A DNA stretch of 64,000 bases. It comes from Spirochaetaceae bacterium (GTDB lineage: Bacteria; Spirochaetota; Spirochaetia; Treponematales; Treponemataceae). The notes beneath the pieces were generated by a model, which was given only the letters and a program-made list of their open reading frames with translations, had not been told where the DNA came from and did not search any database. A program made the translations under genes and the position numbers. This document shows, in pieces, positions 9,784 through 22,614 of the stretch; the first letter of the stretch is position 1, and each line of letters starts with the position of its first letter. Location of the stretch: positions 1 through 64,000 of the forward strand of contig JAFQDD010000003.1 in NCBI GenBank assembly GCA_017416145.1, in the 5' to 3' direction.

Positions 9784-9864
9784 TCTTGTTCTTGTGTTCT
9801 GAGTCAAGAAGTAGTAGACTTACAAGAGTACTATGTCGGTACAAAAGATTTAGTTACACTATAA
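9784..9864 (+). pseudogene. Cas2-like C-terminal remnant, copy 1
   Basis: An open stretch ends VLSQEVVDLQEYYVGTKDLVTL followed by TAA at 9862. It matches the last 22 codons of the longer remnant at 16075-16221, with mostly synonymous or conservative differences, so it once coded for protein. The first 36-bp repeat starts 12 bases after its stop. Everything upstream of about 9784 is unrelated, so this is a truncated 3' end. Confidence 0.55.
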
Positions 9865-9876
9865 AAATGAGTGGAC

Positions 9877-9912
9877 ATAAAACGACCTGACCTTTTCGGG
9901 AGGTGATACAAC
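9877..9912 (+). repeat. 36-bp cassette repeat, copy 1
   Basis: Consensus form (CGACCTGACC left arm, CGGGAGGTGATACAAC right). It directly follows the first Cas2-like remnant and precedes the hydrolase cassette. Confidence 0.85.
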
Positions 9913-9995
9913 TAAACAAATTTAAATTTGACTGCTAGTTTGAATTTCCGATTATGTGAAAACTGGGTTTTATCTGCGATAAAGGGAGTAAATTC

Positions 9996-10688
9996 ATGAA
10001 GAAAACAAGAATTGAAATTAATCATATCCCTGCACTTGTGTGGGGAGAGAAATCAGATAAAGTGTATTTATGTGTACATGGAAAAATGTCTTCCAAGGAA
10101 TCTGCTGAAGGAATTGCAAATATAGCAGAGCAAAGAGGATATCAGACAATAAGTTTTGATTTACCTGGGCATGGGGAGCGCCAAAATGAGGATAAGCGAT
10201 GTGATATATGGAATGGAATACATGACCTTACGATAATAGGGGATTATGTTTTTACAAACTGGAAGGAAGTATCACTGTACGCCTGCAGTTTAGGTGCATA
10301 TTTTTGTCTAAATGCCTATAATACACGCAACATAAAGAAATGCCTCTTTCAATCGCCCATTTTGGATATGGAGTATTTGATTAAGCAGATGATGGTGTGG
10401 TTTGAGATATCAGAAGAACGCCTCGCAAGAGAAAAGGAGATTGAGACGCCCATTGATATGATGACCTGGGATTACTATCAGTATGTGAAAGAGCATCCTG
10501 TGCAAAAATGGAATATTGAAACCAATATTCTTTTTGCGGGGAGAGATACTTTGCAGTCATTGGGAATTGTGAAAGATTTTGTCCATAACTTTAACTGTGC
10601 ACTAACATTATCGGAAAATAGTGATCATCCTTTTATGGCAGAGGAAGATGGACCGATAGTTGAGCAATGGTTGCAGGATAACTTGTAA
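9996..10688 (+). CDS. alpha/beta hydrolase (cassette gene)
   Basis: A 230-residue alpha/beta-hydrolase fold protein. The oxyanion region is CVHGKMSSKES, the nucleophile elbow YACSLGAYF, the acid probably D in FAGRDTLQS, and the catalytic histidine in ENSDHPFMAEED. It has no signal peptide, so it is cytoplasmic; the substrate is unknown. A ribosome site (AAAGGGAG) precedes the ATG. It is the largest cassette ORF, stands alone between repeats 1 and 2, and has its own terminator. Its composition is less A-rich than its neighbours, which fits acquisition. Confidence 0.9.
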   Translation: MKKTRIEINHIPALVWGEKSDKVYLCVHGKMSSKESAEGIANIAEQRGYQTISFDLPGHGERQNEDKRCDIWNGIHDLTIIGDYVFTNWKEVSLYACSLGAYFCLNAYNTRNIKKCLFQSPILDMEYLIKQMMVWFEISEERLAREKEIETPIDMMTWDYYQYVKEHPVQKWNIETNILFAGRDTLQSLGIVKDFVHNFNCALTLSENSDHPFMAEEDGPIVEQWLQDNL

Positions 10689-10705
10689 TACAATTCCAAT
10701 TTGTC

Positions 10706-10734
10706 GAACAGTTGCTTTTTACAAGCAACTGTTC
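10706..10734 (+). terminator. hairpin after hydrolase cassette
   Basis: A perfect 12-bp stem, GAACAGTTGCTT paired with AAGCAACTGTTC around a five-base loop, begins 18 bases after the stop codon. The following T-run is short (TTTGAT), so termination may be weak. It ends just before repeat 2. Confidence 0.65.
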
Positions 10735-10738
10735 TTTG

Positions 10739-10774
10739 ATAAAACGACCTGACCTTTTCGGGAGGTGATACAAC
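10739..10774 (+). repeat. 36-bp cassette repeat, copy 2
   Basis: Identical to the consensus form. The next gene starts only 20 bases after it with a separate AGGAGGTGAA ribosome site; the conserved promoter seen before the related gene at 11378 is missing here. Confidence 0.85.
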
Positions 10775-10794
10775 TATATAGGAGGTGAAATATT

Positions 10795-11232
10795 ATGGAC
10801 AAATTGACGGAACAATATTTCAGAACAAAAATCAAAGAAATAAACGAGAAACTTGAAGGAAGCCACCTGCTTCAAGAAATGGCAAGAATTGCCACTGTTG
10901 GAAATTATGAAATATGTGTATACAGTGGCGAAGGTCCAACTCCTCATTTTCATTTTAAGAATGCAAAGACAGGCAAAGAAGGCTGCTTAAAAATATTAGA
11001 AAACGATTACTTCAAACATGGAAATTATCAAGCAAAGTTAAACTCAAAAGAAAGAAAAGAAATCTTTAATTTCTTAAAAGAAAATACAAAAAATAAAATT
11101 TATGCGGCAGGAACAACGAATTTTCAGATAATATGCAACGAATGGAACATAAATAATGATTCCAATCCAGTTCCTTTAGATTCAAAACTGCCAGATTACA
11201 CTGTATTGAAAAAGAAAGGCACTGGACACTAA
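10795..11232 (+). CDS. DUF4160-like small protein, PHFH type (cassette gene)
   Basis: A 145-residue soluble protein in two parts. The first ~35 residues, starting MDKLTEQYFRTKIKEINEKL and ending LLQEMA, are a charged helix shared almost word for word with the cassette proteins at 11378, 14066 and 15344. The rest has VGNYEICVYSGEGPTPHFHF, which fits the PHxHV core of DUF4160, a family often found beside toxin-antitoxin genes, with no known activity. It is followed by a 24-bp repeat and then the 36-bp repeat. Function is not assigned. Confidence 0.75.
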   Translation: MDKLTEQYFRTKIKEINEKLEGSHLLQEMARIATVGNYEICVYSGEGPTPHFHFKNAKTGKEGCLKILENDYFKHGNYQAKLNSKERKEIFNFLKENTKNKIYAAGTTNFQIICNEWNINNDSNPVPLDSKLPDYTVLKKKGTGH

Positions 11233-11233
11233 T

Positions 11234-11258
11234 CAAAGTGCGTGAGAGTATAATTCCG
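11234..11258 (+). repeat. 24-bp secondary cassette repeat, copy A
   Basis: AAAGTGCGTGAGAGTATAAT followed by TCCG, immediately after the stop codon of the DUF4160-like gene. It is a slightly diverged member of the family whose core is GGGGATAATTCCG. Confidence 0.6.
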
Positions 11259-11284
11259 AAAAATAATTTAATTGCTATGTTCGA

Positions 11285-11320
11285 ATAAAACGAACTGACC
11301 TTTTCGGGAGGTGATACAAC
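11285..11320 (+). repeat. 36-bp cassette repeat, copy 3
   Basis: One change from consensus in the left arm (CGAACTGACC). It lies 26 bases after the 24-bp repeat A. Confidence 0.85.
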
Positions 11321-11327
11321 ATTATTT

Positions 11328-11358
11328 TTGAAAATATTTGGTTAAAAAATGCTATAAT
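11328..11358 (+). promoter_or_regulatory. cassette promoter for the gene at 11378
   Basis: TTGAAA at 11328-11333 and an extended -10, TGC-TATAAT, at 11350-11358, with a 19-bp spacer. The same block occurs inverted at 15810-15840 before the related minus-strand gene, so it is a conserved, mobile promoter. Confidence 0.7.
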
Positions 11359-11377
11359 ATAAACGAGGTGAAGTATT

Positions 11378-11863
11378 ATGGATAAATTAACAGAGCAATA
11401 TTTTAGAGTTGCAATTTCAAAGATAAAAGAAAAACTTGAAGAAAAAAGAATTTATGAAAAAGAGTGCCTTCAAGAAATGTCCAGATTGGCAGCAAAGAAA
11501 AGTGGACTTCCTGTAGATTTATATATAGATGATTCTAAATCATACATCAGAGGCGGACATGCAAAAAGAATAAAGTTTCAAGCAAATTCAGATGATTCAA
11601 GAACTGAAAGTTTTTCTTCAATGACTTTTGATGGGAAGGTTGTGCCAGAAACATTTCCCAAAAAACACTCGATAAAAAGCAAAGAAATAGAAGAGATTTC
11701 TATTTTTGTAAAAAACAATGTTTTTGCATTAGAAAAGATTGCTGATAAAGAAATTGATTTTCAAGATTTTATGAATGTTATGATTAAGAAAACTGAATCT
11801 GCCACTGCAGATGAAATCTCCAAGCAAAAAGAGCAGGTAATCGAAATTATTGAAAAATCCTAA
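11378..11863 (+). CDS. constant N-terminus plus GGHAKRIKFQ domain (cassette gene)
   Basis: A 161-residue protein. It begins with the shared helix MDKLTEQYFRVAISKIKEKL and CLQEMS, but its body differs from the PHxH proteins: GLPVDLYIDDSKSYIRGGHA followed by KRIKFQ. That body is shared with the next cassette (GLPMNIWIDETSAYLNGGYA). The helix and the body therefore seem to be separable modules. AGGTGAA precedes the ATG and a strong promoter lies upstream. I do not recognise the function. Confidence 0.75.
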   Translation: MDKLTEQYFRVAISKIKEKLEEKRIYEKECLQEMSRLAAKKSGLPVDLYIDDSKSYIRGGHAKRIKFQANSDDSRTESFSSMTFDGKVVPETFPKKHSIKSKEIEEISIFVKNNVFALEKIADKEIDFQDFMNVMIKKTESATADEISKQKEQVIEIIEKS

Positions 11864-11886
11864 AAGTCCGAAAGGGGATAATTCCG
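11862..11886 (+). repeat. 24-bp secondary cassette repeat, copy B
   Basis: AAAAGTCCGAAAGGGGATAA followed by TTCCG, starting inside the stop codon of the preceding gene. It is eight bases from the next 36-bp repeat. Confidence 0.7.
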
Positions 11887-11894
11887 ATAATTAT

Positions 11895-11930
11895 ATAAAA
11901 CGACCTCCCGTTTTCGGAAGGTGATACAAC
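11895..11930 (+). repeat. 36-bp cassette repeat, copy 4
   Basis: A variant with the left arm CGACCTCCCG and right arm CGGAAGGTG, giving a longer hairpin with one mismatch. Confidence 0.85.
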
Positions 11931-11952
11931 CTAATATAATAATGGAAAAAAT

Positions 11953-12408
11953 ATGGAAGAATATAACGAACTATTTCAACAAATTTATGACAAAACCCAT
12001 TTAGAAGAAATGGCTATCTGTCGTCCAAATAAAACAGGACTTCCTATGAATATATGGATAGATGAAACAAGTGCTTACTTGAATGGTGGATATGCAAAAA
12101 GAATTAACTTCCAGATAAACAAAAATCCACTGTTTCAAACTAGTAATACTTGTCCTATGCTATTGGATGGAACTATACCAGAAAAAGCATTCGATGTGAT
12201 AAAAAATAATAAGGAGTATAATCTTACTAAAAATGATATTGAAATGGTAAGTAATTTTGTGAAGAACAATTCATACGCATTAAGTTTAATTGCTGACCAA
12301 AAAGTTTGGATAGATGATTTTTGGGGATTTTGTATAAAGGGTGGAGAAATTGCCAGTGAAGAAGAAATTGAATTATTAAAACAAAATTGTAATGCTGTCG
12401 TTCATTAA
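11953..12408 (+). CDS. GGYAKRINFQ-domain protein (cassette gene)
   Basis: A 151-residue protein related to the one at 11378 through GLPMNIWIDETSAYLNGGYA, KRINFQ and the later DIEMVSNFVKNNSYALSLIA. It lacks the full shared N-terminal helix, keeping only HLEEMA. No good ribosome site precedes 11953; a nearby ATG at 11942 is in another frame. The expected 36-bp repeat after it is missing: the array breaks at 12434, exactly where ATAAAAC would begin. A deleted second copy of this cassette is at 15980-16072. Confidence 0.7.
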   Translation: MEEYNELFQQIYDKTHLEEMAICRPNKTGLPMNIWIDETSAYLNGGYAKRINFQINKNPLFQTSNTCPMLLDGTIPEKAFDVIKNNKEYNLTKNDIEMVSNFVKNNSYALSLIADQKVWIDDFWGFCIKGGEIASEEEIELLKQNCNAVVH

Positions 12409-12631
12409 CACCTATTATAAAATATATTAGTCAATAGTCATGTGTTAAAATAACATAGGGTCAAAGTGGGCGTTACTCATCTTGGACCTTTTCAAAAATT
12501 CTACAATCCCTACAGCTAAACAAATATCCAAAATTTTCAGAAATAAACCAACTTTTTGGTAAAAATTTAGAAATATTCTTCCAAAATGCACCTATATTAT
12601 ATACAAAATTAATCCTACTGGGGGTACGAAG

Positions 12632-13126
12632 ATGATTAATTTTAAGGAATTAGACGATCTTTACACAGTGGATGTGGAGTCAGGTCTTTTCTGTTATTTA
12701 CACAGAAAAGATTCCTTGGTAAACTTTAGTGATGAATTGAAAGTTTCAGAGGCCTTTGAACTTGTAAAAAATAGAAAAATTGTAAAGGCCTTCTCTATAA
12801 GCTCTTCCTTTTCTAATCTCCAGGATTACGTTTATATTAGACAGTTAAATGAGGAAGCCAAAATTGTTGGGGGTGACACATTTGTGATGATGTTCACTCA
12901 TTTGGAAAATCTAGTTACAAAACAGCCAATCACTATTCCTGAAGATTTTACAAAAGTAGATCCTGAATACGTAGACTCCACAGTTGAAAGTATAAATAGG
13001 GTTTTCTGGCTCGCACCTGAATCAGAAGATTTAAAAGAGAAAACCTTTGTTGAAAATATGCGCAAACGCCTGAGGGATATGCTTAAATACAATACCACAA
13101 CAAAGGTAGAAGATCTTATTTCCTAG
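12632..13126 (+). CDS. SEAFE-family small protein (paralogue 1)
   Basis: A 164-residue soluble protein starting MINFKELDDLYTVDVESGL. It belongs to a local family with the proteins at 16396, 17053 and 23853, sharing the MI(N/D)F start and the VSEAFELVKN segment. A GGGGGT-type ribosome site precedes the ATG, and TATATT about 30 bases upstream may be its -10 box. No known domain is recognised. The charged C-terminus (MRKRLRDMLKYN) is unique to this copy. No 36-bp repeat follows it. Confidence 0.7.
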   Translation: MINFKELDDLYTVDVESGLFCYLHRKDSLVNFSDELKVSEAFELVKNRKIVKAFSISSSFSNLQDYVYIRQLNEEAKIVGGDTFVMMFTHLENLVTKQPITIPEDFTKVDPEYVDSTVESINRVFWLAPESEDLKEKTFVENMRKRLRDMLKYNTTTKVEDLIS

Positions 13127-13128
13127 CC

Positions 13129-13335
13129 TCAGAAGGCAAATACTTTTGCCATACTGCTCAAAATATCAAATAGATCGTTTGAATAAAAAATAGCACTTTT
13201 TTCCCACCAACGGTTGTTTGGATTCCATTGAAATTTTTGATTCTTTAAAAGAGATGTACATGTTTTAAAACCCATGTCATCCTCCTGAACTATGGAAGCT
13301 ACTTTTTTTCCGTTATTAAAACCTAAAGTTATCAT
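13129..13335 (-). CDS. small protein, unknown
   Basis: A 68-residue ORF read leftwards, starting MITLGFNNGKKVASIVQEDD after AAGGAA. The middle part QKFQWNPNNRWWEKSAIFYS has the look of a compact domain with exposed aromatics. It lies tail-to-tail with paralogue 1 and stops two bases after that gene ends. Function unknown; reality is moderately likely from composition and ribosome site. Confidence 0.5.
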   Translation of the reverse strand: MITLGFNNGKKVASIVQEDDMGFKTCTSLLKNQKFQWNPNNRWWEKSAIFYSNDLFDILSSMAKVFAF

Positions 13336-13459
13336 TTAAAAATTCCTTGCATAAAATATAGATTTTTTCTGAATTTTCCGTTATTTCAATAAGTTCTTTA
13401 CCTATATTATATATTATTATATATGAAAATGAGCTCCTGGTGGGCTCAAGGAGGAGAAT

Positions 13460-13630
13460 ATGGAAACAAAAGATAAACTTTTTGTAGCCGAATTGTTCCT
13501 GGCCCTTTTGGAGAAAGATGCCGTCAAAATGAATGACATTGTAAATTCTCTCAGAGAAGAAAAAGATGCTGAGGAAAGAATGGAAATTGAGGAAGCAAAG
13601 GCCCTTTTGAATAAATCTTCAAACACCTAG
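13460..13630 (+). CDS. small acidic helical protein
   Basis: A 56-codon ORF starting METKDKLFVAELFLALLEKD with a very strong ribosome site (AAGGAGGAGAAT). It is rich in Glu, Lys and Leu and would form one or two amphipathic helices. The size and acidity would suit an antitoxin or immunity peptide, but nothing in the sequence proves it. TATATTATTATATATG upstream supplies a promoter-like region. Confidence 0.6.
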   Translation: METKDKLFVAELFLALLEKDAVKMNDIVNSLREEKDAEERMEIEEAKALLNKSSNT

Positions 13631-13662
13631 GATTAAACTATATTATTCCAAAGGAGAAAACA

Positions 13663-13692
13663 ATGACTCAGTTTACAGAGGTTAGAAAATGA
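13663..13692 (+). CDS. nine-residue leader ORF (MTQFTEVRK)
   Basis: A tiny ORF with a good ribosome site (AAAGGAG) whose TGA overlaps the ATG of the next gene (AAATGATT). It may couple translation of the 122-residue protein, or be the vestige of a longer N-terminus after a frameshift. Confidence 0.4.
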   Translation: MTQFTEVRK

Positions 13693-14057
13693 TTTCACAG
13701 GATGCAAAAACTTTTTTGTTACAAGCAAATCAATTGCAAGAAAACTTTTCAAGGCTGATAACAGTCAATAATCTCCTTAAGGAAGCAAAAATAGATTTAT
13801 CCGCCCTTGATAAAAGACTTGGTCGTTACGATAATTATTTTGATAAAATGCTAGAGACCGCTCCAATTGATCAGGACTGGAATTTTATCCTCAAGCAACT
13901 TGAGGATAATGTAAACGAATTGAATACCTACTTTGGTTGGATTAACGATGTTGAAAGGTACGATATTCAAATAACTGAACAGGAGCTTCAAAGAATGATT
14001 CAGTATAGGAATACAATAAGGAATCAAATTCAGCAGATTCGGAATTATCCCCTCTGA
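13689..14057 (+). CDS. helical protein, unknown
   Basis: A 122-residue, strongly helical soluble protein with Q/N-rich stretches (QLQENFSRLITVNNLL, QYRNTIRNQIQQIRN). It overlaps a nine-codon leader ORF and its last codons run into a 24-bp secondary repeat (copy E, minus orientation). It meets the inverted cassettes at 14066 tail-to-tail, so this point is one edge of the inverted block. No family recognised. Confidence 0.6.
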   Translation: MISQDAKTFLLQANQLQENFSRLITVNNLLKEAKIDLSALDKRLGRYDNYFDKMLETAPIDQDWNFILKQLEDNVNELNTYFGWINDVERYDIQITEQELQRMIQYRNTIRNQIQQIRNYPL

Positions 14058-14063
14058 TACTTT
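14040..14063 (-). repeat. 24-bp secondary cassette repeat, copy E
   Basis: Read on the minus strand it is AAAGTATCAGAGGGGATAAT then TCC. It lies just after the stop of the minus-strand gene at 14066 and overlaps the end of the plus-strand gene. Confidence 0.6.
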
Positions 14064-14065
14064 GA

Positions 14066-14566
14066 TTAAATATACTGAGGTTCTTTTAATCCTTCATTAA
14101 CAACATCCTGTATATCTCGCCAAGTGGTTCTCATAGCATCCCAATTTGTTTTGTCGTTTTCAGATGCAGAACGAACAGGCTTTTTGTTTGCCCACTCTAC
14201 AATTTTATCGCCGTATTTTCCAAAATCCATATCATCTTCTTCAACTTTTTTCAAATCCTCTGCTGTTTTTGGAGGAGTCTCGGATACAATCTGAAAACGA
14301 CTATAAAATTTATGATCTATAGACCATACATGAGCGTGAGGAGGATTATGTTCCTTTTTTGAACCTTTGCTTTTTTTATCATTTCCTATTGTGCTGCCTA
14401 CAGTTACTATAATTTTATATCCATCTTCCTTTTTGCAATGAACAGCTCCCATTTCTTGTAAGCATTGAATTACTTCTGTTATTTTTGTTTTTATTTTTTT
14501 CTCTTCTAATTTAGTTTTTATGTTTTTGATTGTAGTTTTAAACCACTGTTCAGTTAATCTATCCAT
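14066..14566 (-). CDS. DUF4160-like protein, NPPHAHV type (cassette gene)
   Basis: About 166 residues. The start at 14566 (MDRLTEQWFKTTIKNIKTKL) is chosen because GGTGAG lies just upstream and because it matches the family N-terminus. The body contains HNPPHAHVWSIDHKF, the canonical DUF4160 PPHxHV core, and ends in WDAMRTTWRDIQDVV. It is followed on its own strand by 24-bp repeat E and preceded by repeat C, so it is a cassette in inverted orientation. Confidence 0.75.
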   Translation of the reverse strand: MDRLTEQWFKTTIKNIKTKLEEKKIKTKITEVIQCLQEMGAVHCKKEDGYKIIVTVGSTIGNDKKSKGSKKEHNPPHAHVWSIDHKFYSRFQIVSETPPKTAEDLKKVEEDDMDFGKYGDKIVEWANKKPVRSASENDKTNWDAMRTTWRDIQDVVNEGLKEPQYI

Positions 14567-14575
14567 AATACTCAC

Positions 14576-14599
14576 CGAAATTATCCCCTTACGTACTTT
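14576..14599 (-). repeat. 24-bp secondary cassette repeat, copy C
   Basis: On the minus strand AAAGTACGTAAGGGGATAAT then TTCG. It starts at the stop codon of the gene at 14598 and ends ten bases before the next ATG, so it also supplies the GGTGAG ribosome site region. Confidence 0.65.
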
Positions 14600-15167
14600 A
14601 ATCTACATCGTACAATTTATATTTTTCTACATAATCTACATTGTTTCTATTCATAGTTTCCATAAACTTTTCATCTAATTCAACAATATCTTTTACGGCT
14701 GCTAGCAAATGATTTACCAAATCCCTTGTCAAATTATAAATATTATTAAACTCAGGTTCTGCAGCTTTCTTTTTTATGTAGTTAATGGTATCATTATATA
14801 ATTCCCTAATATCACTAGCATTTGTAAGCAACTTATTCAAGTTATTATGCAAATAATCTGGATCTAAAGGAAAATCATCTTCAGCTGTAAGTATTTTTTG
14901 CAATTGATGTTCATATGCAGGAATGTTTTGTAGATAATTTTCCCAAGTTGTTCTAGATTGTTCTGTTAAAACTTTATATTCAGTGTTAAAAGCTTTGTTA
15001 ATTGCTTCATTTCTAGGAATGATTTTTAGGCTTGCCAATGCTGCCATTATTTTAAGTTCCAATTTTATCAAATCTTTTACGAAATTTGTTTCATCTGTAG
15101 ATTTTTTCTTTTCGTTTAATATATAATTCAAGCAATTTATTTCTTCTTTCATTTCATTTCTGTTCAT
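14598..15167 (-). CDS. helical protein, unknown (inverted cassette)
   Basis: About 189 residues, all-helical and mildly acidic, with no membrane segment. A start at 15167 (MNRNEMKEEINCLNY) is preferred because GGAGA lies eight bases upstream; the ATG at 15182 would have almost no leader behind a TATATTATAT box. The pattern of long helices with Leu/Ile spacing resembles the ORF at 18267 in style but not in sequence. It is followed by 24-bp repeat C. Confidence 0.6.
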   Translation of the reverse strand: MNRNEMKEEINCLNYILNEKKKSTDETNFVKDLIKLELKIMAALASLKIIPRNEAINKAFNTEYKVLTEQSRTTWENYLQNIPAYEHQLQKILTAEDDFPLDPDYLHNNLNKLLTNASDIRELYNDTINYIKKKAAEPEFNNIYNLTRDLVNHLLAAVKDIVELDEKFMETMNRNNVDYVEKYKLYDVD

Positions 15168-15302
15168 AGGATTCTTCTCCATATATAATATAGCTCAATT
15201 CTGACAAAAAATTTCAAATTTATGGAATATTCATATTCGTTACAAGCACTTATTGTTCTTGAAAAATGATTATTGAATTTCTTTTCCTCTAAATTCGCAT
15301 TT

Positions 15303-15326
15303 GGAATTATCCCCTGACGTACTTTT
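15303..15326 (-). repeat. 24-bp secondary cassette repeat, copy D
   Basis: On the minus strand AAAAGTACGTCAGGGGATAA then TTCC, 17 bases after the stop of the gene at 15344. It is the best-preserved copy with C and B. Confidence 0.65.
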
Positions 15327-15343
15327 GAAATAAATAAACTATT

Positions 15344-15790
15344 TTATCGATTATTGAGTGCATCCCAAACAATTTGAACAACAACCCAATTATTTACCCC
15401 TCGTTTATTATCCTTTTTTGACCATTCATAAATTGCTTTCTGATAATCTTCTGATACTTTAGGATTATCTTCAATGGCAACTATGTCTTCGGGAGATTTG
15501 GGTTGAAAGTCTGTAACTTTTACTCGAGTTATTAAATCATAATTATTATCTTTACCCGTTCTATCTATATGAGAAGCTGGAAATAAATGTAAATGAGGTT
15601 CTTCACCAGTATTTTTATATTCGCTAGTAATAACTTCTAGTCTCATACCATTTTTAAGTTCTTTACAAGCGTCTTTTCGGCAAACTGTCGCCATTTCTTG
15701 AAGAAGTTCTTCATTTATTCTTTTTCCTTCAAGTTTCTCGTTTATTTCTTTGATTTTTGTTCTGAAATATTGCCCCGTCAATTTGTCCAT
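15344..15790 (-). CDS. DUF4160-like protein, EEPHLHL type (inverted cassette)
   Basis: A 148-residue protein. The first 70 coding bases are nearly identical to those of the plus-strand gene at 10795 (MDKLTGQYFRTKIKEINEKL, then LLQEMA). The body GEEPHLHLFPASHIDRTG is a PHxH-type DUF4160-like core and the C-terminus VNNWVVVQIVWDAL parallels the 14066 protein. AGGTGAA and a conserved promoter lie upstream. It is read opposite to the 36-bp array. Confidence 0.75.
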   Translation of the reverse strand: MDKLTGQYFRTKIKEINEKLEGKRINEELLQEMATVCRKDACKELKNGMRLEVITSEYKNTGEEPHLHLFPASHIDRTGKDNNYDLITRVKVTDFQPKSPEDIVAIEDNPKVSEDYQKAIYEWSKKDNKRGVNNWVVVQIVWDALNNR

Positions 15791-15809
15791 AGTATTTCAC
15801 CTCGTTTAT

Positions 15810-15840
15810 ATTATAGCATTTTTTAACCAAATCTTTTCAA
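15810..15840 (-). promoter_or_regulatory. inverted copy of the conserved cassette promoter
   Basis: On the minus strand TTGAAA, 19 bases, then TGC-TATAAT, identical in layout to 11328-11358. The match extends about 80 bases into the coding start, forming an inverted repeat about 4.4 kb apart. Confidence 0.7.
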
Positions 15841-15943
15841 AAATAATCAATTTTTTTCTTTTGCACTAATTATATACATAAAACGAAGGTTATAAGAACT
15901 GCAATTCCTATAACCCTCTTCACAACCAAAAAAGAGATTTTAG

Positions 15944-15979
15944 ATAAAACAACCTGACCTTTTCGGGAGGTGATACAAC
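15944..15979 (+). repeat. 36-bp cassette repeat, copy 5
   Basis: Left arm CAACCTGACC, otherwise consensus. It marks the return to plus orientation after the inverted block. Confidence 0.85.
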
Positions 15980-16044
15980 CTAATATAATAAGTGAAGAAG
16001 AAATTGAATTATTAAAACAAAATTGTAATGCTGCCGTTCATTAA
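15980..16044 (+). pseudogene. deleted copy of the 11953 cassette
   Basis: The 12 bases after repeat 5 equal those after repeat 4 (CCTAATATAATA), then the sequence jumps to the last 17 codons of the 11953 gene (SEEEIELLKQNCNA, V, H, stop at 16042). About 400 bases of the ORF are missing. Homology continues through 16072, where ATAAAAC, the start of a 36-bp repeat, abuts the Cas2-like remnant. Confidence 0.8.
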
Positions 16045-16074
16045 CTACTATTATAAAAATATATTAGTCAATAA

Positions 16075-16221
16075 AACAGAATCAAAGAGTTTTTACCCAA
16101 AACAGGAACTGTAAGAATGTTAATCTTAACAGAAAATCAATTTTCTTCTTGCGTTCTGAGTCAAGAAGAAGTAGACTTACAAGAGTATCATGTTGGTGCG
16201 AAAGATTTAGTTACGCTATAA
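16075..16221 (+). pseudogene. Cas2-like C-terminal remnant, copy 2
   Basis: A 48-codon open stretch with no upstream start outside it. It reads LPKTGTVRMLILTENQF and, 25 residues later, ends KDLVTL. Type II Cas2 proteins end with the same layout: a P-K-x-G-x-V-x-x-L-x-x-TEKQF strand, a variable loop and (E/K)xLVxL. It therefore looks like the second half of a Cas2. The 5' half is gone and the join is exactly at a repeat-like ATAAAAC. Similarity is judged by eye; a profile search would settle it. Confidence 0.55.
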
Positions 16222-16241
16222 AAATGTGTGCTATACAGGTG

Positions 16242-16311
16242 GTCAAGGGCCGTTTCACTTAAACCCTTGACTCACCTTTGTTTCGGTTCTTCAAACATTG
16301 TAGAACCGAAA
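16242..16311 (+). other. two strong hairpins between Cas2 remnant and repeat 6
   Basis: Hairpin 1 pairs GTCAAGGG (16242-16249) with CCCTTGAC (16264-16271). Hairpin 2 pairs TTTCGGTTCT (16281-16290) with AGAACCGAAA (16302-16311) and runs into repeat 6. Neither has a proper T-run. They could be terminators or part of a structured leader RNA. Confidence 0.55.
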
Positions 16312-16346
16312 TAAAACGACCTGACCTTTTCGGGAGGTGATACACC
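16311..16346 (+). repeat. 36-bp cassette repeat, copy 6
   Basis: Consensus except for the last base (TACACC instead of TACAAC). Confidence 0.85.
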
Positions 16347-16395
16347 AACATTAACGAGTATAACCTATATTATTATGTGTAGGAGGAAGATAAGA

Positions 16396-16944
16396 ATGGT
16401 GGCAGAAAAACAAGTTTTTTACGATGATGAGAAAACAATTGAATTATTGGATAGATTAGTCAGCATTCAATTCCCATATGAATATGGAACAATTCACAGA
16501 GTAACACCTGATAGTGAAGTTTTTCGCATTGTTCCTAAATACAGTGCTTTAGGTCCCGGTAAAGATGGTTACAGATACACTGCTTCTGTAAAAGAAGCAT
16601 TTGAAATATTAAGAACTAACAGTAACTATAAACTTGATTGGTATACAGGACCTTGTGAATCTGTTCGTGATATAAAAATAAAATGGATGGTTTTGGATGC
16701 TTTAGGTCTTCCTTATATAAAACTTGGCGGTGAACTTGAGTCTGTTTACTGGGGAGCAAAAGAACCACTTGTTTATAGTGGCAACAGTAAAGAACAAGCT
16801 TGGGAATACTACGAAGCAAATGTAACTTTAGGTTTTGAAGAACCTAATGATGTTTACAAAAAGAAATGTGGTCCTGGTGATGCTTACCTTACATGGATTT
16901 CTGATTGCAGAAAACTTGCCGAAAAGCATCAGAAAAAAAGATAA
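16396..16944 (+). CDS. SEAFE-family protein (paralogue 2, cassette gene)
   Basis: A 182-residue soluble protein. The start at 16396 (MVAEKQVFYDDEKTIELL) is chosen because AGGAGG sits inside the longer open frame just upstream. Family markers are ASVKEAFEILR and WGAKEPLVYSGNSKEQAWEY, the latter shared with paralogues at 17053 (ESKEPVEYTGSN) and 23853 (GRKDPIQYNGTN). The promoter-like TATATTATTATG lies 20-35 bases upstream. No known fold is recognised. Confidence 0.75.
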   Translation: MVAEKQVFYDDEKTIELLDRLVSIQFPYEYGTIHRVTPDSEVFRIVPKYSALGPGKDGYRYTASVKEAFEILRTNSNYKLDWYTGPCESVRDIKIKWMVLDALGLPYIKLGGELESVYWGAKEPLVYSGNSKEQAWEYYEANVTLGFEEPNDVYKKKCGPGDAYLTWISDCRKLAEKHQKKR

Positions 16945-16969
16945 AAATCAGATAGCAATTTTATTTTCT

Positions 16970-17005
16970 ATAAAACGACCTGACCTTTTCGGGAGGTGAT
17001 ACACC
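16970..17005 (+). repeat. 36-bp cassette repeat, copy 7
   Basis: Same as copy 6, ending TACACC; 25 bases after the stop of paralogue 2. Confidence 0.85.
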
Positions 17006-17052
17006 AAAAGAACCTATATTATTAATCATAATACAGCTTATGAGGTACTAAT

Positions 17053-17478
17053 ATGATTGATTTTACGGAAATTGATAAAGAATTCAAAGTTGTTGTAGGA
17101 AAAGGACTTAGACCTTTTTTGATTTATAAAAAGAATTGGCAGTATGATGCAGGTTGTACTGTGTACACTGTTTCAGAGGCTTTCGAGAAAGTTAAAAATG
17201 GAGAAGGTGCTTTTTTTCCAAGTTACCAAATTGATTGTATGAGATTGTTCAATGGGCTTCAAAAAGAACTTGGAGATGATTATACAGAGTTTGATGTGAT
17301 TGCTGCTATAAATTGGGAATCAAAAGAACCTGTAGAGTATACAGGTTCAAATCCGATTATCCAAAACCAGTATGACTTGGCAAATGCAATTTTGGGTCTT
17401 AGAGATTGGCAGGATTTAGACATTAGCCCAAAATGGATTGAAGACTCAAAAACAGTTATAAAGACTTACTTTAACTAG
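17053..17478 (+). CDS. SEAFE-family protein (paralogue 3, cassette gene)
   Basis: A 141-residue protein starting MIDFTEIDKEFKVVVGKGLR. TVSEAFEKVKNGEGAFFPSY and the later LLxxL-type helix and ESKEPVEYTGSN align with the protein at 23853 over its full length. This is the compact form of the family, so 141-147 residues is probably the basic unit. TATATTATTAATCATAAT before it is promoter-like. Function unknown; several divergent copies in one array would suit immunity or effector-binding roles, which is inference. Confidence 0.75.
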   Translation: MIDFTEIDKEFKVVVGKGLRPFLIYKKNWQYDAGCTVYTVSEAFEKVKNGEGAFFPSYQIDCMRLFNGLQKELGDDYTEFDVIAAINWESKEPVEYTGSNPIIQNQYDLANAILGLRDWQDLDISPKWIEDSKTVIKTYFN

Positions 17479-17483
17479 ATTTA

Positions 17484-17519
17484 GTAAAACGACCTGACCT
17501 TTTCAGGAGGTGATACAAC
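17484..17519 (+). repeat. 36-bp cassette repeat, copy 8
   Basis: GTAAAAC start and one core change (TTTTCAGGAGG). It lies five bases after the stop of paralogue 3. Confidence 0.85.
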
Positions 17520-17548
17520 ATTATTATGTGTAAATGGAGGAACGAAAG

Positions 17549-18127
17549 ATGTACAGCAATTGTTTATTTGAAGCATTAAAAGCAAAAATCAAAGATCCAA
17601 AGAATGTACAGATTATATTCCTTAAAGGTGGTTTATTTGGTAAACGAGACCATTTTATGTGGATGAACAAAGATACTGTATTTCATGCCTACAATCCTAA
17701 AGGGAGCAACAATAACATTCTTTATAATGTTTCCTATAAAAAAGTTGATTTTGATGTATTCGAAGGATATGTTATAGATGCAATAAAAAAATTACCTTTA
17801 GAAACACAGCTTAAAATTGCAAAAAACTGGCATCTTAAATCAATTGAAATACCAGGTGTAGTACAATGGGCTAATTTTATAAAAGATGACGACCCTGAAT
17901 TTTCAAACATTCCAAAAACTGAAGATTTTTATTATTTGACAAAAATTCTTAGAAAAAAGCCGCTTATCAAAATATTTATTAACAGTACAATAAAAACTAT
18001 CGAGTTTGATAAACTGCTTAATTCTGAAGGTCCATTGCAATGGAAATATGTAACGCCTTTTGATAATGACTATACAGCAATTTATGGATGGTTAAGGAAC
18101 AGAAATACTTTTGTAGAGATGCAATAA
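17549..18127 (+). CDS. unknown cassette protein
   Basis: A 192-residue soluble protein starting MYSNCLFEALKAKIKDPKNV; the start is fixed by TGGAGGA just upstream, while the frame is open five codons earlier. KGGLFGKRDHFMWMNKDTVF could be the core of a compact enzyme-like fold with a Cys near the N-terminus and a His in the second motif, but I do not recognise the family. It has its own terminator, so it is a self-contained cassette. Confidence 0.65.
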   Translation: MYSNCLFEALKAKIKDPKNVQIIFLKGGLFGKRDHFMWMNKDTVFHAYNPKGSNNNILYNVSYKKVDFDVFEGYVIDAIKKLPLETQLKIAKNWHLKSIEIPGVVQWANFIKDDDPEFSNIPKTEDFYYLTKILRKKPLIKIFINSTIKTIEFDKLLNSEGPLQWKYVTPFDNDYTAIYGWLRNRNTFVEMQ

Positions 18128-18154
18128 TAATCTGTTCCGACCTTTCTTTATTGG

Positions 18155-18182
18155 ATATCCGTATTATCTACGATACGGATAT
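18155..18182 (+). terminator. terminator after the 17549 gene
   Basis: A perfect 10-bp stem ATATCCGTAT/ATACGGATAT with an eight-base loop, followed by TTTTCCCC, 28 bases after the stop. Confidence 0.7.
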
Positions 18183-18222
18183 TTTCCCCTTCTACATCAC
18201 CTGCATTATTTATTCTGTTTTG

Positions 18223-18258
18223 GTAAAACGACCTGACCATTTCGGAAGGTGATACACA
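18223..18258 (+). repeat. 36-bp cassette repeat, copy 9
   Basis: The most diverged full copy: GTAAAAC start, ACCATTTCGGAAGG core, end TACACA. Confidence 0.8.
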
Positions 18259-18266
18259 TATATGTG

Positions 18267-18764
18267 ATGAGACAAATTATGGATGACTTATACGAAAGAA
18301 TATCGAATACATTTAATGAATTAATAGAAAAAGAAGAAGAAAAATCAACTGCAATGGGCTTTGAAAAGCTTGTCAGCATGTTTGAAGATATAAGCGATAC
18401 ATTACAGTGTTTGATGATTCCGTTTACTTTGAGTTCTAAAACTGAAAGTGTATTGCAAGAAGCAGTAACTGACTATAAAGCATTTATCAAACAATATGGT
18501 CAATTGCTAAGATATATGAAAACATTCAATTCTGCCAGTCAAAACAAACCAATTGAGGATAACAATGGTTCTTTTGCCAAACGTCTTGATAATTGCATTA
18601 AAGATGTCGTTGATTTTTACAATCAAACAATGCTCAATGAAAAGAATACAAAGCAAGTTGAGCGTGTTCAAAAAGCATATTATGCTTACTTAATGTTAAG
18701 CAGAGTCTTGAATACAGCCATAAAAGTAAAACAACCTGACCTTTCGGAAGGTGATACAACATAA
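18267..18764 (+). CDS. helical protein whose end runs through repeat 10
   Basis: About 165 residues, entirely helical, soluble, acidic near the N-terminus (ELIEKEEEKS). The frame is also open from a GTG inside repeat 9; the AAGGTGAT of that repeat is the only ribosome-site-like sequence, about 13 bases before the ATG at 18267. The C-terminus VKQPDLSEGDTT is encoded by repeat 10 itself, so the original stop was probably lost when the repeat was joined. Function unknown. Confidence 0.6.
   Translation: MRQIMDDLYERISNTFNELIEKEEEKSTAMGFEKLVSMFEDISDTLQCLMIPFTLSSKTESVLQEAVTDYKAFIKQYGQLLRYMKTFNSASQNKPIEDNNGSFAKRLDNCIKDVVDFYNQTMLNEKNTKQVERVQKAYYAYLMLSRVLNTAIKVKQPDLSEGDTT
18726..18760 (+). repeat. 36-bp cassette repeat, copy 10 (35 bp)
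   Basis: One base shorter in the core (CCTTTCGGAAGG). It is translated as the tail of the preceding ORF. Confidence 0.8.
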
Positions 18765-18933
18765 AAGTATTTTTTTGAAAAAACAAAAGTACTTCGGTTT
18801 ACTTGAAAAAAATGCTTTACAGAATGAAAATCTGGTTATATTCTAAAGTTAGTTGACGAGATAAATCAACTAACAAAAACTTACAGAAGCTCGACTAGAA
18901 ATAGTTAAGCATATTTAGGAAAATCCTAAGGAG
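18761..18933 (+). ncRNA. gene-less cassette with several hairpins; candidate structured RNA
   Basis: This interval has no ORF above 14 codons. It contains a 9-bp stem GTTAGTTGA/TCAACTAAC near 18847-18873, a GAAA-capped stem in GACTAGAAATAGTT near 18892-18905, and TTAGGA-AAA-TCCTAA just before repeat 11. Three tidy hairpins in a row in the only non-coding cassette suggest an RNA product. It matches no RNA class I can name. Confidence 0.4.
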
Positions 18934-18969
18934 CTAAAACGACCTCCCGTTTTCGGGAGGTGATACACC
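18934..18969 (+). repeat. 36-bp cassette repeat, copy 11
   Basis: The perfect-hairpin variant: CGACCTCCCG and CGGGAGGTG around TTTT, ending TACACC. Confidence 0.85.
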
Positions 18970-19034
18970 TATATATGCGAAAATTTATTTACATATTTTA
19001 AGTATAGGTAGTAAAGCTACCAGGAGGTTTATAT

Positions 19035-19220
19035 ATGTGGAATACAATTAAAGTTATTATTGGAATAATAATTCTTGTATTAATTGGAATATTGATTTTC
19101 ATTATTTCGTCATCATTAGCGCCAGTGAATGCACAGGAAGTCGCTCATGGTGGAGTAGCCTTTCCAGTTATTGGTATTATTGTTCTAGGTATATGCTTAT
19201 TTTTAGATATTAAATCATAA
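19035..19220 (+). CDS. small two-segment membrane protein (cassette gene)
   Basis: A 61-residue protein with two hydrophobic helices: residues 5-27 (VIIGIIILVLIGILIFIISS) and about 42-58 (VAFPVIGIIVLGICLF), joined by a short loop. AGGAGG precedes the ATG at ideal spacing. It is the only ORF of the last full cassette. Size and topology would fit a membrane-active toxin, a holin-like protein or a small subunit; nothing more can be said. Confidence 0.65.
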   Translation: MWNTIKVIIGIIILVLIGILIFIISSSLAPVNAQEVAHGGVAFPVIGIIVLGICLFLDIKS

Positions 19221-19226
19221 GCTTGG

Positions 19227-19262
19227 GTAAAACGACCTCCCGTTTTCGGGAGGTGATACAAC
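19227..19262 (+). repeat. 36-bp cassette repeat, copy 12 (last)
   Basis: Perfect-hairpin variant with GTAAAAC start and TACAAC end. No further copy follows in the window. Confidence 0.85.
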
Positions 19263-19340
19263 ATAGTACGATTTATGCCATTTGACAACATCTTTTTCAA
19301 TTATTGCAATTTTTTTAATCCCTTGAAACAATATCTGAAT

Positions 19341-19445
19341 TCTCTTGAATTTTTCTACAAAATCTCTTGAATTTTTTCACCAAAACTCTTGAATTTTTCT
19401 GTAAAATCTCTTAAATTTTTTCACAAAATCTCTTGAATTTTTGTT
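19341..19445. repeat. 22-bp tandem repeat, about 4.7 units
   Basis: Units begin with (T/A)CTCTTGAATTTTT at 19341, 19363, 19385, 19407 and 19429, each followed by a C/A-containing tail and AAAA. The exact 22-bp spacing equals two helical turns. No frame stays open through it. It lies between the last cassette repeat and the transposon. Confidence 0.8.
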
Positions 19446-19463
19446 CTTAACATCTTGATGTTT

Positions 19464-19471
19464 TTTCAATT
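19464..19471. repeat. 8-bp target-site duplication, left
   Basis: TTTCAATT directly before the left inverted repeat, identical to 23745-23752. Confidence 0.9.
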
Positions 19472-19553: not shown

Positions 19554-20696
19554 CTAAACTACATCTTCTAATTTATCACCATACGGTAAAGATTTAATAT
19601 AATTTTCCATGAACTTCCAATCTGGAACAAACCCTTCTTCAGAATATTTATGAGTTTCGTCTGTAAATGGTGTTCCATCTTCATTATGTAAAATTGGAAG
19701 TTTGACAATTATTTCATCTATATGAACCCTGTATTTTCTTCCATGAGAATATTTATATTTGTCTAAATCAAGTACTGTAACTAAAAATAGTGCATTTGAT
19801 TTAGTTAGTGCATCGTCATATCCAATAGAAATAGTTGTAGAACCTATAAAATCACTTTCTATATAATTTGTATATCCACATGAACCTTCACCATCACATA
19901 TAAATATTATTCCATGACCTTTTGTAACAAGTTCTGGTTCTAATGATACCGAACGCATAACTCCATTGTCTGTTTTTTTTGCTCCAATATAATTAATATC
20001 AGTACCATCTTCTAAATTTCCAGCATTACCACATTTACAGTTTTCTATTTCAAATAAACCAGCTTGTTGTCTTGTTCTTGAAATTTTAAAGTCTTTCCAG
20101 TTCTGTATGTCTAATTTGGCATTTTGATTCGCTTTGTTTTTTGTCGTTAAAGATTTATAATGCAATGACATCATATAATTTTCTATATAGTTCCAATCTG
20201 GAACATAACCTTCTTCTGAATATTTATGAGTTTCATCTATAAATGGAGTTTCATCTTCTTTATATAAAATTGGTAACTTTATATTAAAATCTCTGTTAAT
20301 ATGGGTGTTGAGTTCTCTACCGAAAGCATAATATTTAATTTTGCTTTCGTATCTAACAAGACTAGAAATAAACAAATTTATGCTATGTGTCATTTCTTTT
20401 GCTTTGGCTTCCATTACGGCAACATTCTGTCCTGTATAAAAAGGCTCTTCCTGAACAAAACAAGAACCAAGATAACTACCACCAAGTGCTACTGTTAGAA
20501 GTCCTGCTCTGTATGGAATAACATTTTCTACAAAATCTACTTTACCATCTACACCATTATTATAACTAACTCTCGACACAAAATTAACTTGTGGTTCTTC
20601 ATCTGTCATTTTATTCTTATCAAATTTATTACCCATTTTAATTGTATATAAATCCTTAAGATAAAAAGTTTTCCAATTTTCTGTTTTAAGACTCAT
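19554..20696 (-). CDS. specificity subunit of BcgI-like R-M system
   Basis: A 380-residue protein made of two similar halves, each a target-recognition domain followed by a conserved helix: ETHKYSEEGYVPDWNYIENY near residue 155 and ETHKYSEEGFVPDWKFMENY near 350. Two such halves read the two parts of a split recognition site. It overlaps the nuclease/methyltransferase gene by 11 bases, showing co-translation. It most resembles the B (S) subunit of BcgI-type systems rather than a classic HsdS because the partner carries its own nuclease domain. Confidence 0.85.
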   Translation of the reverse strand: MSLKTENWKTFYLKDLYTIKMGNKFDKNKMTDEEPQVNFVSRVSYNNGVDGKVDFVENVIPYRAGLLTVALGGSYLGSCFVQEEPFYTGQNVAVMEAKAKEMTHSINLFISSLVRYESKIKYYAFGRELNTHINRDFNIKLPILYKEDETPFIDETHKYSEEGYVPDWNYIENYMMSLHYKSLTTKNKANQNAKLDIQNWKDFKISRTRQQAGLFEIENCKCGNAGNLEDGTDINYIGAKKTDNGVMRSVSLEPELVTKGHGIIFICDGEGSCGYTNYIESDFIGSTTISIGYDDALTKSNALFLVTVLDLDKYKYSHGRKYRVHIDEIIVKLPILHNEDGTPFTDETHKYSEEGFVPDWKFMENYIKSLPYGDKLEDVV

Positions 20697-22614
20697 GTAT
20701 TTTACCCTCCTTCATCATATAAGCAAGGTAATTATTTAATGTCTGTTGAAAGTCTGCTTCTGTAAGTTTTGTATAATCTGTTTTCATGTATGCTTCGCAA
20801 AGCCATTCTGCATTACCATCTACAATAGCAACAGAAGATTTTCCATCAACTGCTTTTTTTGTTTCAAATAAATCCAACCATTCTTGTTCTATTGCTTTCC
20901 ACTTTGAATCTCCGTTAGAATCAAACTGTTCAATGCGACCTAAATTTTTCTTTTTCTTGAAACCATCTTCTTTACAATAGCCAAAGAATGTAGTTCTTGA
21001 AGTTCCATCTGGTTTAATGTGTGGTTGTCCTAATGTAAACAACATACAACAAGCAGAAACAGCAGCTCCAGGGTAAAAAATTTCAGCTGGTAGCGTAAAT
21101 ACTGCTTCTAAGGTATTATTTTCAAGCATTGCATTTTTTTCTTCTGTAATAATATTACTTGTTCCGATAGCCGCTGAAACAGGAAGCAAGACTGCTAATT
21201 TAACAGTTTTTATTGGTTGGTGATTTTGCTCTCTTTCTTCGTTCATTCTCTTAATTACATCAGACAAGAAATGGATAAATACCATTCCCTTTGTTGGGTC
21301 TTCTTTTCCATCTTTGGCAGAGGCTGCCCAATTTTTCTTATATTCAGATGGTATTCCAATAGGCTTCGCATTATAAGGTGGATTCATTAATATAATGTCT
21401 GGATTTGCTTGTCTAATAAAATCCTCACAGTCAAAACAACTTTTGAATTTAATATTTGAGTTTCCATCTCCATGAATAAGCATATTTGTTGTAGCAAGTC
21501 CATACGCTTTTTCTTCAATTTCAATACCAAAAATGTGTTGTTTCTTAACAGTTTCTTGAAGTTGTTTAGCTTCTTCTTCCGTTTTGCCTCTACGACAATC
21601 TGCAAGTTCTTTTACCATAGCTTGTACAAGAAACGAACCACTTCCACAGGTTGCGTCAAGAACAACCTTTGTTCTATCTACTTCTGTTAATCGACACATA
21701 AAATCTGTTATGTGGTCTGGTGTAAATGCTTGGTTCTTATCTGCTTTTCCTGTGTATTTATTAAAAGCAATAAAGAAAAGGTTTAATATATCCTGACCTT
21801 CTGAACTATCAGCATCAATGTATTTATAAATATCTGTAAGTATAGTGTCTAATATTTTAATCCAGTTTGCTGTTGTAAGTTTTCTTACTTTCTGGTCGTT
21901 TAAAACATTCTTCTGTAATAACTCAACCTTTTTTGTTTTATTCTCTGAACCATCAAGATGATTTGTAAGTGTAGATTCAATAGCGGCACGAATAGATTTT
22001 TCATCCATCATAGACCATACAGCATTTAAATCTTCTGTTAGCTTATCATCAATTTTTGTAGCACCTTTCTTTTCAACCATGCTTTTAAGGTACAAAAGAG
22101 TTGTTCCGACAAATTGACTTCTTAATCTTTCGTCTATGTCCATCTTATGTAATAGTTCATTCAAATCATAAGTATTCTTTAATACCTTTTCTCTGTCGTT
22201 CTGCTTACTGATATTGAATATCTTGGCATAATGTTCCATTGTATCAAGGACTGTTTCATCATTAAGCACATGACTATCATCTACAAAAGATTTCCATACC
22301 TTGATTTTATTGTTGTTAGTATTAGCAAGAATACAAATAACTTTCTTACCTTTATGTAATGCTCTTTCTTCTTCTAAATAATCTGCAAGTTGTTGTTCGT
22401 CTGATTTTACAAAATTCTGTTTTGTTTCTACAAGCACAACGACATCGTTCATCTCAAAACGAATATCTAATTTAAAATGATTAACAGGGTGTCCTACTGC
22501 TTTTTCAAGCGTTGCTTTAGAACCAGCTTCTTGAACATAGCTGTATTCTCCACCCTCTATATTTGCTGTATAATACTGTATTCCAATTTTATTTATAATA
22601 GAGGTTCTGTCCAT
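20686..22614 (-). CDS. fused nuclease-methyltransferase, BcgI A-subunit-like
   Basis: About 642 residues from MDRTSIINKIGIQYY; this start follows AAGGA at good spacing, while the frame is open 11 codons earlier. The N-terminal domain has a PD-(D/E)xK-type core, D50 in KLDIRFEM and E63-T-K65 in VLVETKQ. A helical linker leads to a gamma-class adenine methyltransferase with DATCGSGSFLVQA and catalytic NPPY near residue 410. Such a chain both cuts and methylates, with the downstream subunit giving specificity. No separate HsdR is present, which fits a type IIB/BcgI-like system. Confidence 0.85.
   Translation of the reverse strand: MDRTSIINKIGIQYYTANIEGGEYSYVQEAGSKATLEKAVGHPVNHFKLDIRFEMNDVVVLVETKQNFVKSDEQQLADYLEEERALHKGKKVICILANTNNNKIKVWKSFVDDSHVLNDETVLDTMEHYAKIFNISKQNDREKVLKNTYDLNELLHKMDIDERLRSQFVGTTLLYLKSMVEKKGATKIDDKLTEDLNAVWSMMDEKSIRAAIESTLTNHLDGSENKTKKVELLQKNVLNDQKVRKLTTANWIKILDTILTDIYKYIDADSSEGQDILNLFFIAFNKYTGKADKNQAFTPDHITDFMCRLTEVDRTKVVLDATCGSGSFLVQAMVKELADCRRGKTEEEAKQLQETVKKQHIFGIEIEEKAYGLATTNMLIHGDGNSNIKFKSCFDCEDFIRQANPDIILMNPPYNAKPIGIPSEYKKNWAASAKDGKEDPTKGMVFIHFLSDVIKRMNEEREQNHQPIKTVKLAVLLPVSAAIGTSNIITEEKNAMLENNTLEAVFTLPAEIFYPGAAVSACCMLFTLGQPHIKPDGTSRTTFFGYCKEDGFKKKKNLGRIEQFDSNGDSKWKAIEQEWLDLFETKKAVDGKSSVAIVDGNAEWLCEAYMKTDYTKLTEADFQQTLNNYLAYMMKEGKIHES

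Follow-up and report, generated by a model that had tools for sequence, protein, structure and literature searches.

Why should the truncated end of one cas2-like gene stand twice in front of 36-bp repeats, with gene-sized stretches of DNA between the repeats that follow? The question is raised by the window, by which we mean the whole 64,000-nucleotide stretch of Spirochaetaceae DNA that was analysed. CRISPR adaptation is known to supply an effector with short memory spacers, and arrays of gene cassettes are familiar from integrons; in the present case, a CRISPR integrase seems to do the integron's work. A sequence-only reading had proposed that the two fragments are the ends of a type II Cas2 and that the cassette array either sits where a CRISPR-Cas locus was or spread together with its cas2-proximal end. 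Its interpretation is partly supported, as the assignment to type II Cas2 and the co-spread of the leader end were upheld and the former CRISPR-Cas site was not. In our view, the fragments are probably the 3' end, and with it the leader, of a Cas9-less Cas1-Cas2 module of type II derivation, a CRISPR adaptation module that has become a platform for gene capture in the manner of an integron. The relevant features of the window are the following.

9784..9864, plus strand: cas2 3' end, copy A, 26 codons and stop, putative leader of array A (translation, alignments)
9865..9876, plus: remainder of the putative array A leader, aaatgtgtagct in diverged form (17-leader alignment)
9877..9912, plus: 36-bp repeat A1, leader-proximal (repeat match)
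9913..10738, plus: cassette A1, 826 bp; ORF 9996-10688, alpha/beta-hydrolase-like (below curated cut-offs)
10739..10774, plus: 36-bp repeat A2 (repeat match)
10775..11284, plus: cassette A2, 510 bp; ORF 10795-11232 (match to G161:C27)
11285..11320, plus: 36-bp repeat A3 (repeat match)
11321..11894, plus: cassette A3, 574 bp; ORF 11378-11863 (match to G161:C27)
11895..11930, plus: 36-bp repeat A4 (repeat match)
11931..12434, plus: cassette A4; ORF 11953-12408; no recognisable repeat 3' of the cassette
15944..15979, plus: 36-bp repeat, then a copy of the cassette A4 tail (15991-16058, 96% to 12355-12422)
16075..16221, plus: cas2 3' end, copy B, 48 codons and stop, putative leader of array B (translation, profile, alignments)
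16222..16232, plus: remainder of the putative array B leader (by comparison)
16233..16310/16312, no strand assigned: dispersed element of about 80 bp between leader B and repeat B1 (treponeme genome matches)
16311..16346, plus: 36-bp repeat B1 (repeat match)
16347..16969, plus: cassette B1, 623 bp; ORF 16375-16944 (189 aa)
16970..17005, plus: 36-bp repeat B2 (repeat match)
17006..17483, plus: cassette B2, 478 bp; ORF 17053-17478 (141 aa)
17484..17519, plus: 36-bp repeat B3 (repeat match)
17520..18222, plus: cassette B3, 703 bp; ORF 17534-18127 (197 aa)
18223..18258, plus: 36-bp repeat B4, 5 mismatches (repeat match)
18259..18933, plus: cassette B4; ORF 18249-18764; degenerate repeat core at 18733-18760
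18934..18969, plus: 36-bp repeat B5 (repeat match)
18970..19226, plus: cassette B5, 257 bp; ORF 19035-19220 (61 aa)
19227..19262, plus: 36-bp repeat B6, the array's last (repeat match)

The two cas2 ends were borne out in their frames, translations and mutual identity. Copy B translates as NRIKEFLPKTGTVRMLILTENQFSSCVLSQEEVDLQEYHVGAKDLVTL, the translation of copy A terminates in ...SCVLSQEVVDLQEYYVGTKDLVTL, and the copies share 88% identity over 92 nt at the DNA level and 84% over 25 residues of protein. The first 36-bp repeat begins 12 nt 3' of the copy A stop and 89 nt 3' of the copy B stop, which agrees with the 12 and about 90 bases given earlier if copies 1 and 2 were numbered in coordinate order. 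The 48-residue piece is 67-75% identical to the Cas2 ends of relatives (E 1e-15 to 1e-17), a match that is evidently not due to chance. Against the Cas2 profile TIGR01573, the piece alone scores 13 bits (E = 0.09, profile positions 53-84), below the curated cut-off of 24.5 bits, and its identity as Cas2 therefore rests on the relatives. Among these, the 101-residue Cas2 of a rumen Spirochaetes assembly (G074:C159, locus L034) matches the 48 residues at 73% identity and reaches 44 bits, so the window fragment is a piece of a cas2 gene and no working Cas2. The profile search suggested by the sequence-only reading accordingly failed for the fragment itself and succeeded for the intact Cas2 of this relative. 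The same reading had anticipated a match to Cas2 residues 55-100 with a 36-bp repeat downstream in the relative; copy B corresponds to residues 54-101, copy A to about residues 78-101, and a related 36-bp repeat directly follows the intact cas2. Judged by these alignments, the window fragments are confirmed as 3' ends of one type II-like cas2.

Within the window, 11 repeats match the consensus, ten with at most two mismatches and one with five, in addition to the degenerate copy near 18733. Contig C10 of this genome carries a second array, with six repeats, and the genome's array repeats number 17-18 in all on two contigs, the most among 269 family members searched. C1-type repeats occur in 32 of these 269 and the reversed control pattern in none. 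An intact cognate cas1-cas2 is absent from the window's genome, where only a type I-C-like Cas1/Cas2 (C9) and a VapD-like Cas2 match (C19) were found; the former belongs to an ordinary cas1-cas2 adjoining a repeat array (G000:C9:104431-107697, L001). Because neither a cognate cas1 nor an intact cas2 is present, the arrays of this genome are probably frozen; both are orphans and may be relics.

Several other features surround these arrays. The element of about 80 bp (16233-16312) recurs in many treponeme genomes, at times in several copies per genome, is MITE-like, and has apparently inserted between leader B and the first repeat. The 4-kb inter-repeat stretch 11931-15943 has no recognisable repeats; on its minus strand, 14066-14575 and 15344-15790 are inverted paralogues of the genes in cassettes A2 and A3 (10795 and 11378), and 13678-14038 is 91% identical to G272. 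Tandem repeats of 22 bp (19295-19470) separate the array end from a locus for type I restriction-modification (hsdS 19554-20696, hsdM 20686-22647), and two minus-strand ORFs at 24352-26582 contain long internal repeats that are nearly identical to each other (86-89% over 157-300 nt).

The complete unit can be recognized in relatives in which both cas1 and cas2 are intact. In L034, cas2 overlaps the gene of a 311-residue type II Cas1 (232.8 bits against TIGR03639, above the type II Cas1 cut-off of 120), the first repeat begins 12 bp after the cas2 stop, and there are nine 36-bp repeats, eight of them identical and the last with one mismatch, separated by gaps of 195-875 bp. In the uncultured Spirochaetaceae RUG14523 (G258, L106), a pair of identical repeats, 429 bp apart, stands after cas1-cas2, and its 36-bp repeat is identical to that of L034 and likewise starts 12 bp after cas2. 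Upstream of its cas1 are host genes and no cas9, nor does its genome contain a cas9 over the curated cut-off, which argues against the proposal that the array sits where a CRISPR-Cas locus was. Nor did the idea of cassettes in place of a former CRISPR array hold, as the 36-bp repeats with gene-size spacers appear to be the module's own. In a second group (C2: G096, G223, G152, G127 and G228), Cas1 is 46-49% identical, the 36-bp repeat is different, and the gaps range from 186 to 1,765 bp. Across these modules, spacers range from 186 to about 1,900 bp and none is near 30 bp. No cas9 passes the curated cut-off in G258, all five C2 genomes, G074, G166, G172, G177 or the window's genome G000 (11 genomes), and G061 and G012 encode one on another contig with its own cas1.

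These modules also appear to share a common ancestry. In a tree of 35 Cas1s, the long-spacer Cas1s, including the partial and long-branched one of a Campylobacter coli plasmid, whose exact position is unsure, form a single clade, set off by a branch with 100/100 support from 27 ordinary type II Cas1s of the same family. Each of the 35 Cas1s retains the catalytic residues E150, H205 and E220, and the module with these residues conserved is found in three lineages. Between the three groups, the repeats are alike at 15-22 of 36 positions (most pairs p < 0.01), compared with 8-14 positions for one ordinary treponeme type II repeat, and the repeats of the three groups are evidently homologous. A phylum sample outside the family yielded Cas1s at 28-34% identity only, viral contigs contained no relatives of the Cas1/Cas2 queries and no exact repeat, and phage records contained distant type II Cas1 and Cas2 only.

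If the modules are intact in relatives, what is it that survives in the window? When 17 first repeats, drawn from 12 genomes or records, are aligned without gaps, they have in common the last cas2 codons, the stop and about 12-15 additional bases, with the consensus cactATAAaaatgtgtagtt. The cas1/cas2 genes of most of these arrays are cut at differing points or internally deleted and the cas2 end is kept. Since this end persists before the arrays despite the loss of the rest, the truncated cas2 ends of the window would be array leaders, and the last cas2 codons with the following 12-15 bp or so presumably serve as the entry site. This bears out the earlier suggestion that the array spread with its cas2-proximal end. 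The last bases of the G166 leader were apparently lost by recombination between the stop region and the repeat start.

Comparisons between arrays suggest how spacers come and go. G127 and G223 have a common leader and two common spacers (270 and 934 bp), and G127 has an extra leader-proximal 186-bp spacer with its own repeat copy. With two genomes, this difference could be either a gain or a loss by recombination between repeats. The common spacers are 100% identical as opposed to 96% in the flank, and thus either transfer or an assembly error is needed, these being metagenome-assembled genomes. G152 and G223 are 99.99% identical over a 10,280-bp stretch that extends to the end of the first repeat, beyond which their spacers differ. 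The 186-bp spacer comes from the interior of flgK and matches G094 at 98%. The 270-bp spacer comes from the interior of a cyclophilin-like gene and matches G085 at 92%, as compared with 76% for G127's own copy; in both, identity to the donor ends at the spacer edges and the donor stretch is without a repeat. Similarly, cassette A2 of the window is 92% identical to a repeat-free chromosomal gene locus in G161, which is a treponeme but belongs to a different genus, with the homology starting at the repeat edge, and 448 bp of cassette A3 are 96% identical to the same contig. The traced spacers are of chromosomal origin, corresponding to uninterrupted genes of other treponemes (92-98%) with exact edges. 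As far as can be read from the sequences themselves, the Cas1-Cas2-leader-repeat-long-spacer architecture, the catalytic residues and the difference by one leader-proximal unit are evident. Searches found no donor of the first G152 spacer, an ABC-permease-like piece, and only relatives at about 82% for the C. coli cassette. In the pooled arrays, repeats farther from the leader are not significantly more decayed (rho 0.09, p 0.51), which counts against our explanation. In G012, the stretch after the third repeat begins with a C-terminal piece of a true intI (G012:C27:72954-73202, L042), which is suggestive of capture of part of an integron integrase gene.

The contents of the cassettes in the window's genome are mostly products without a known family, apart from the alpha/beta-hydrolase-like protein listed above, and no defence families were found among them; one spacer of L034 encodes a barstar-like protein. 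The AlphaFold model of the product of 11378-11863 is too weak (pLDDT 64.5). Sigma-70-like promoters in the array are not in excess over shuffled sequence, and the repeat end TGATACAAC could be imagined as a candidate extended -10.

The layout is also present in cultured isolates. Plasmid pTS1 of Treponema saccharophilum carries a truncated cas2, leader, repeat, 1,339 bp and a repeat, and Lachnospira eligens ATCC 27750 has cas2, leader, repeat, 676 bp and a decayed repeat. The 1,339-bp spacer includes a complete gene for tRNA-Glu (L190:8356-8429). The C. coli plasmid p13786 has a 5'-truncated cas1, cas2, leader, repeat, a 1,458-bp spacer and an identical repeat; this spacer (L187:4897-6426) contains a whole acetyltransferase (GNAT) gene and aph(2'')-Ii, and aph(3')-IIIa lies after the array. 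The paper describing p13786 reports cas1 and cas2 beside tet(O), takes them as CRISPR immunity, and calls the plasmid's aph(3')-IIIa partial (PMC10800408).

Based upon these observations, the following mechanism can be envisaged. Cas1-Cas2 would insert linear pieces of other bacteria's DNA of about 0.2-1.9 kb between the leader and the first repeat, with the 36-bp repeat duplicated at each insertion. In this manner, an array of gene-size spacers would grow, from which whole genes could be kept and expressed, integron-like but by means of a CRISPR integrase. The S. pyogenes Cas1-Cas2 integrates unprocessed substrates by itself, the trimming to about 30 bp being the task of Cas9 (PMC8034620). 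Cas1-Cas2 without Cas9 would insert whatever it gets, and the absence of Cas9 trimming may account for the spacer length. We infer that Cas1-Cas2 itself performs the insertion, and the retained genes presumably benefit the host. In the window's genome, cas1 and most of cas2 would have been lost, leaving orphan arrays, leaders and mostly intact same-strand genes.

Could an established system explain the arrays equally well? An integron with IntI and attC, as in Treponema denticola, with the cas2 ends as bystanders, would have a similar layout of repeats and one small same-strand ORF per cassette; treponemes do carry IntI integrons, with attC of 63-132 bp (PMC3607928), and true IntI genes are present in G096, G127, G177 and G228. 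Yet nothing in the window's genome reaches the integron integrase cut-off (265 bits; best match 75), its 11 window repeats with 20-bp flanks contain no GTTRRRY/RYYYAAC on either strand, and the 36-bp repeats stand at a conserved cas2 end in 17 arrays. With both the IntI and the attC core-site tests having failed, the classical integron was rejected, and we consider it highly improbable. Only slightly less remote is an ordinary type II CRISPR-Cas remnant in which the gene-size gaps are later insertions between old repeats. Such an origin would suit the type II kind of Cas1 and Cas2 as well as the decay of many cas1-cas2 copies, but it is difficult to reconcile with the eight identical repeats of L034, with spacer edges that match gene pieces exactly, or with intact arrays that hold long spacers only. 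Moreover, none of the 57 inter-repeat gaps in 18 arrays is <=60 bp, the shortest being 186 bp and one of the others, of 7,699 bp in G012, possibly not a single spacer. A 24-mer recurring at 55-80 bp spacing, the mark of normal short-spacer arrays, is present in most ordinary type II loci of the same family and absent from every long-spacer locus tested. A classical CRISPR array with lost spacers was rejected on the gap lengths and the lack of this periodicity.

The other two alternatives accept more of the observations. The cas2-like ends might be coding remnants only, which hitch-hike before the repeats while the true leader lies elsewhere; the conserved part is indeed still partly coding, which mixes coding with leader conservation. 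However, on contig C10 of the window's genome (L103:8006-8460), the remnant is reduced to about nine cas2 codons (YVGAKNLVTL) fused in frame to an IS1595 transposase, and these codons with the following bases directly precede the first repeat. Taken together with the differing truncation points that spare the same end in most of the 17 arrays, this makes hitch-hiking unlikely. The most serious competitor, still doubtful in our estimation, grants that Cas1-Cas2 builds the arrays and holds that the spacers are functionless accidental captures of a module that became loose after the loss of Cas9 and is decaying. In accord with it, about 30 of the 32 genomes with C1-type repeats, many of them drafts, show no intact cas1-cas2. 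Furthermore, C2 spacers are often fragments, including internal gene pieces, without preferred orientation (of 9 spacers, 2 with an ORF in the array direction versus 5 opposite), which counts against our explanation and weakens the case for host benefit in this group. Against accidental capture stand the C1 arrays, in which 31 of 43 spacers carry a significant ORF in the array direction versus 12 in the other (8 both), and the window's genome, in which 13/13 bounded spacers tested do so. Due to this predominance, the retention of useful genes in C1 arrays is likely. The persistence of the module in three lineages with its catalytic residues conserved and the whole acetyltransferase and aph(2'')-Ii genes of the C. 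coli spacer further argue against mere accident. Among these possibilities, the Cas9-less Cas1-Cas2 module acting as a gene-capture platform remains our preferred explanation.

If correct, Cas1-Cas2 captures gene-length DNA in nature, and the control of spacer length becomes directly testable. It would also constitute a further route of gene transfer in gut and rumen bacteria, one whose cargo in C. coli already includes an aminoglycoside-resistance gene, and would offer a basis for an integrase able to write long DNA into arrays. It seems reasonably likely, with somewhat less assurance than the nature of the module itself, that these loci represent a third kind of bacterial gene-capture platform, in which a Cas9-free Cas1-Cas2 stores gene-length DNA and moves genes, including a resistance gene, between species and phyla (Spirochaetota, Bacillota and a Campylobacter plasmid). 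A search of open PMC text returned no earlier description of such a system.

Among known systems, the closest is the type II adaptation module (TIGR03639 Cas1 and TIGR01573 Cas2; E. faecalis Cas1, PDB 5xvn), which has the same overlapping cas1-cas2 order, the same catalytic Glu/His/Glu, partly palindromic 36-bp repeats and a leader beside the first repeat. The present modules differ in that no Cas9 passes the cut-off, the spacers are gene-sized, those that could be traced are from chromosomal genes of other bacteria, and the putative leader lies inside the cas2 3' end. Both cas9 and regular spacers of about 30 bp, which define type II CRISPR-Cas, are absent here (11 genomes; 57 gaps). With integrons, including that of T. 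denticola, they have in common small same-strand genes between repeats beside an integrase gene and, in C. coli, a resistance gene among the cassettes. Unlike integrons, the presumed integrase is Cas1-Cas2, its genes and the cassettes have a common orientation, the repeats are without attC core sites, and each unit carries a full 36-bp repeat copy. Because the defining tests of both integrons and type II CRISPR-Cas fail, the system is set apart from each. Casposons likewise employ a Cas1-family enzyme to move long DNA, as is presumed here, whereas these loci include Cas2, form a fixed array with repeats, have no polymerase gene that was seen beside cas1 and, in G258, are flanked by host genes. 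Lastly, stand-alone Cas1-Cas2 or RT-Cas1 adaptation modules occur beside CRISPR arrays (PMC6452270) and are similar in having adaptation genes without a linked effector, whereas the modules described here carry gene-length spacers and no reverse transcriptase gene was noticed beside the intact loci.
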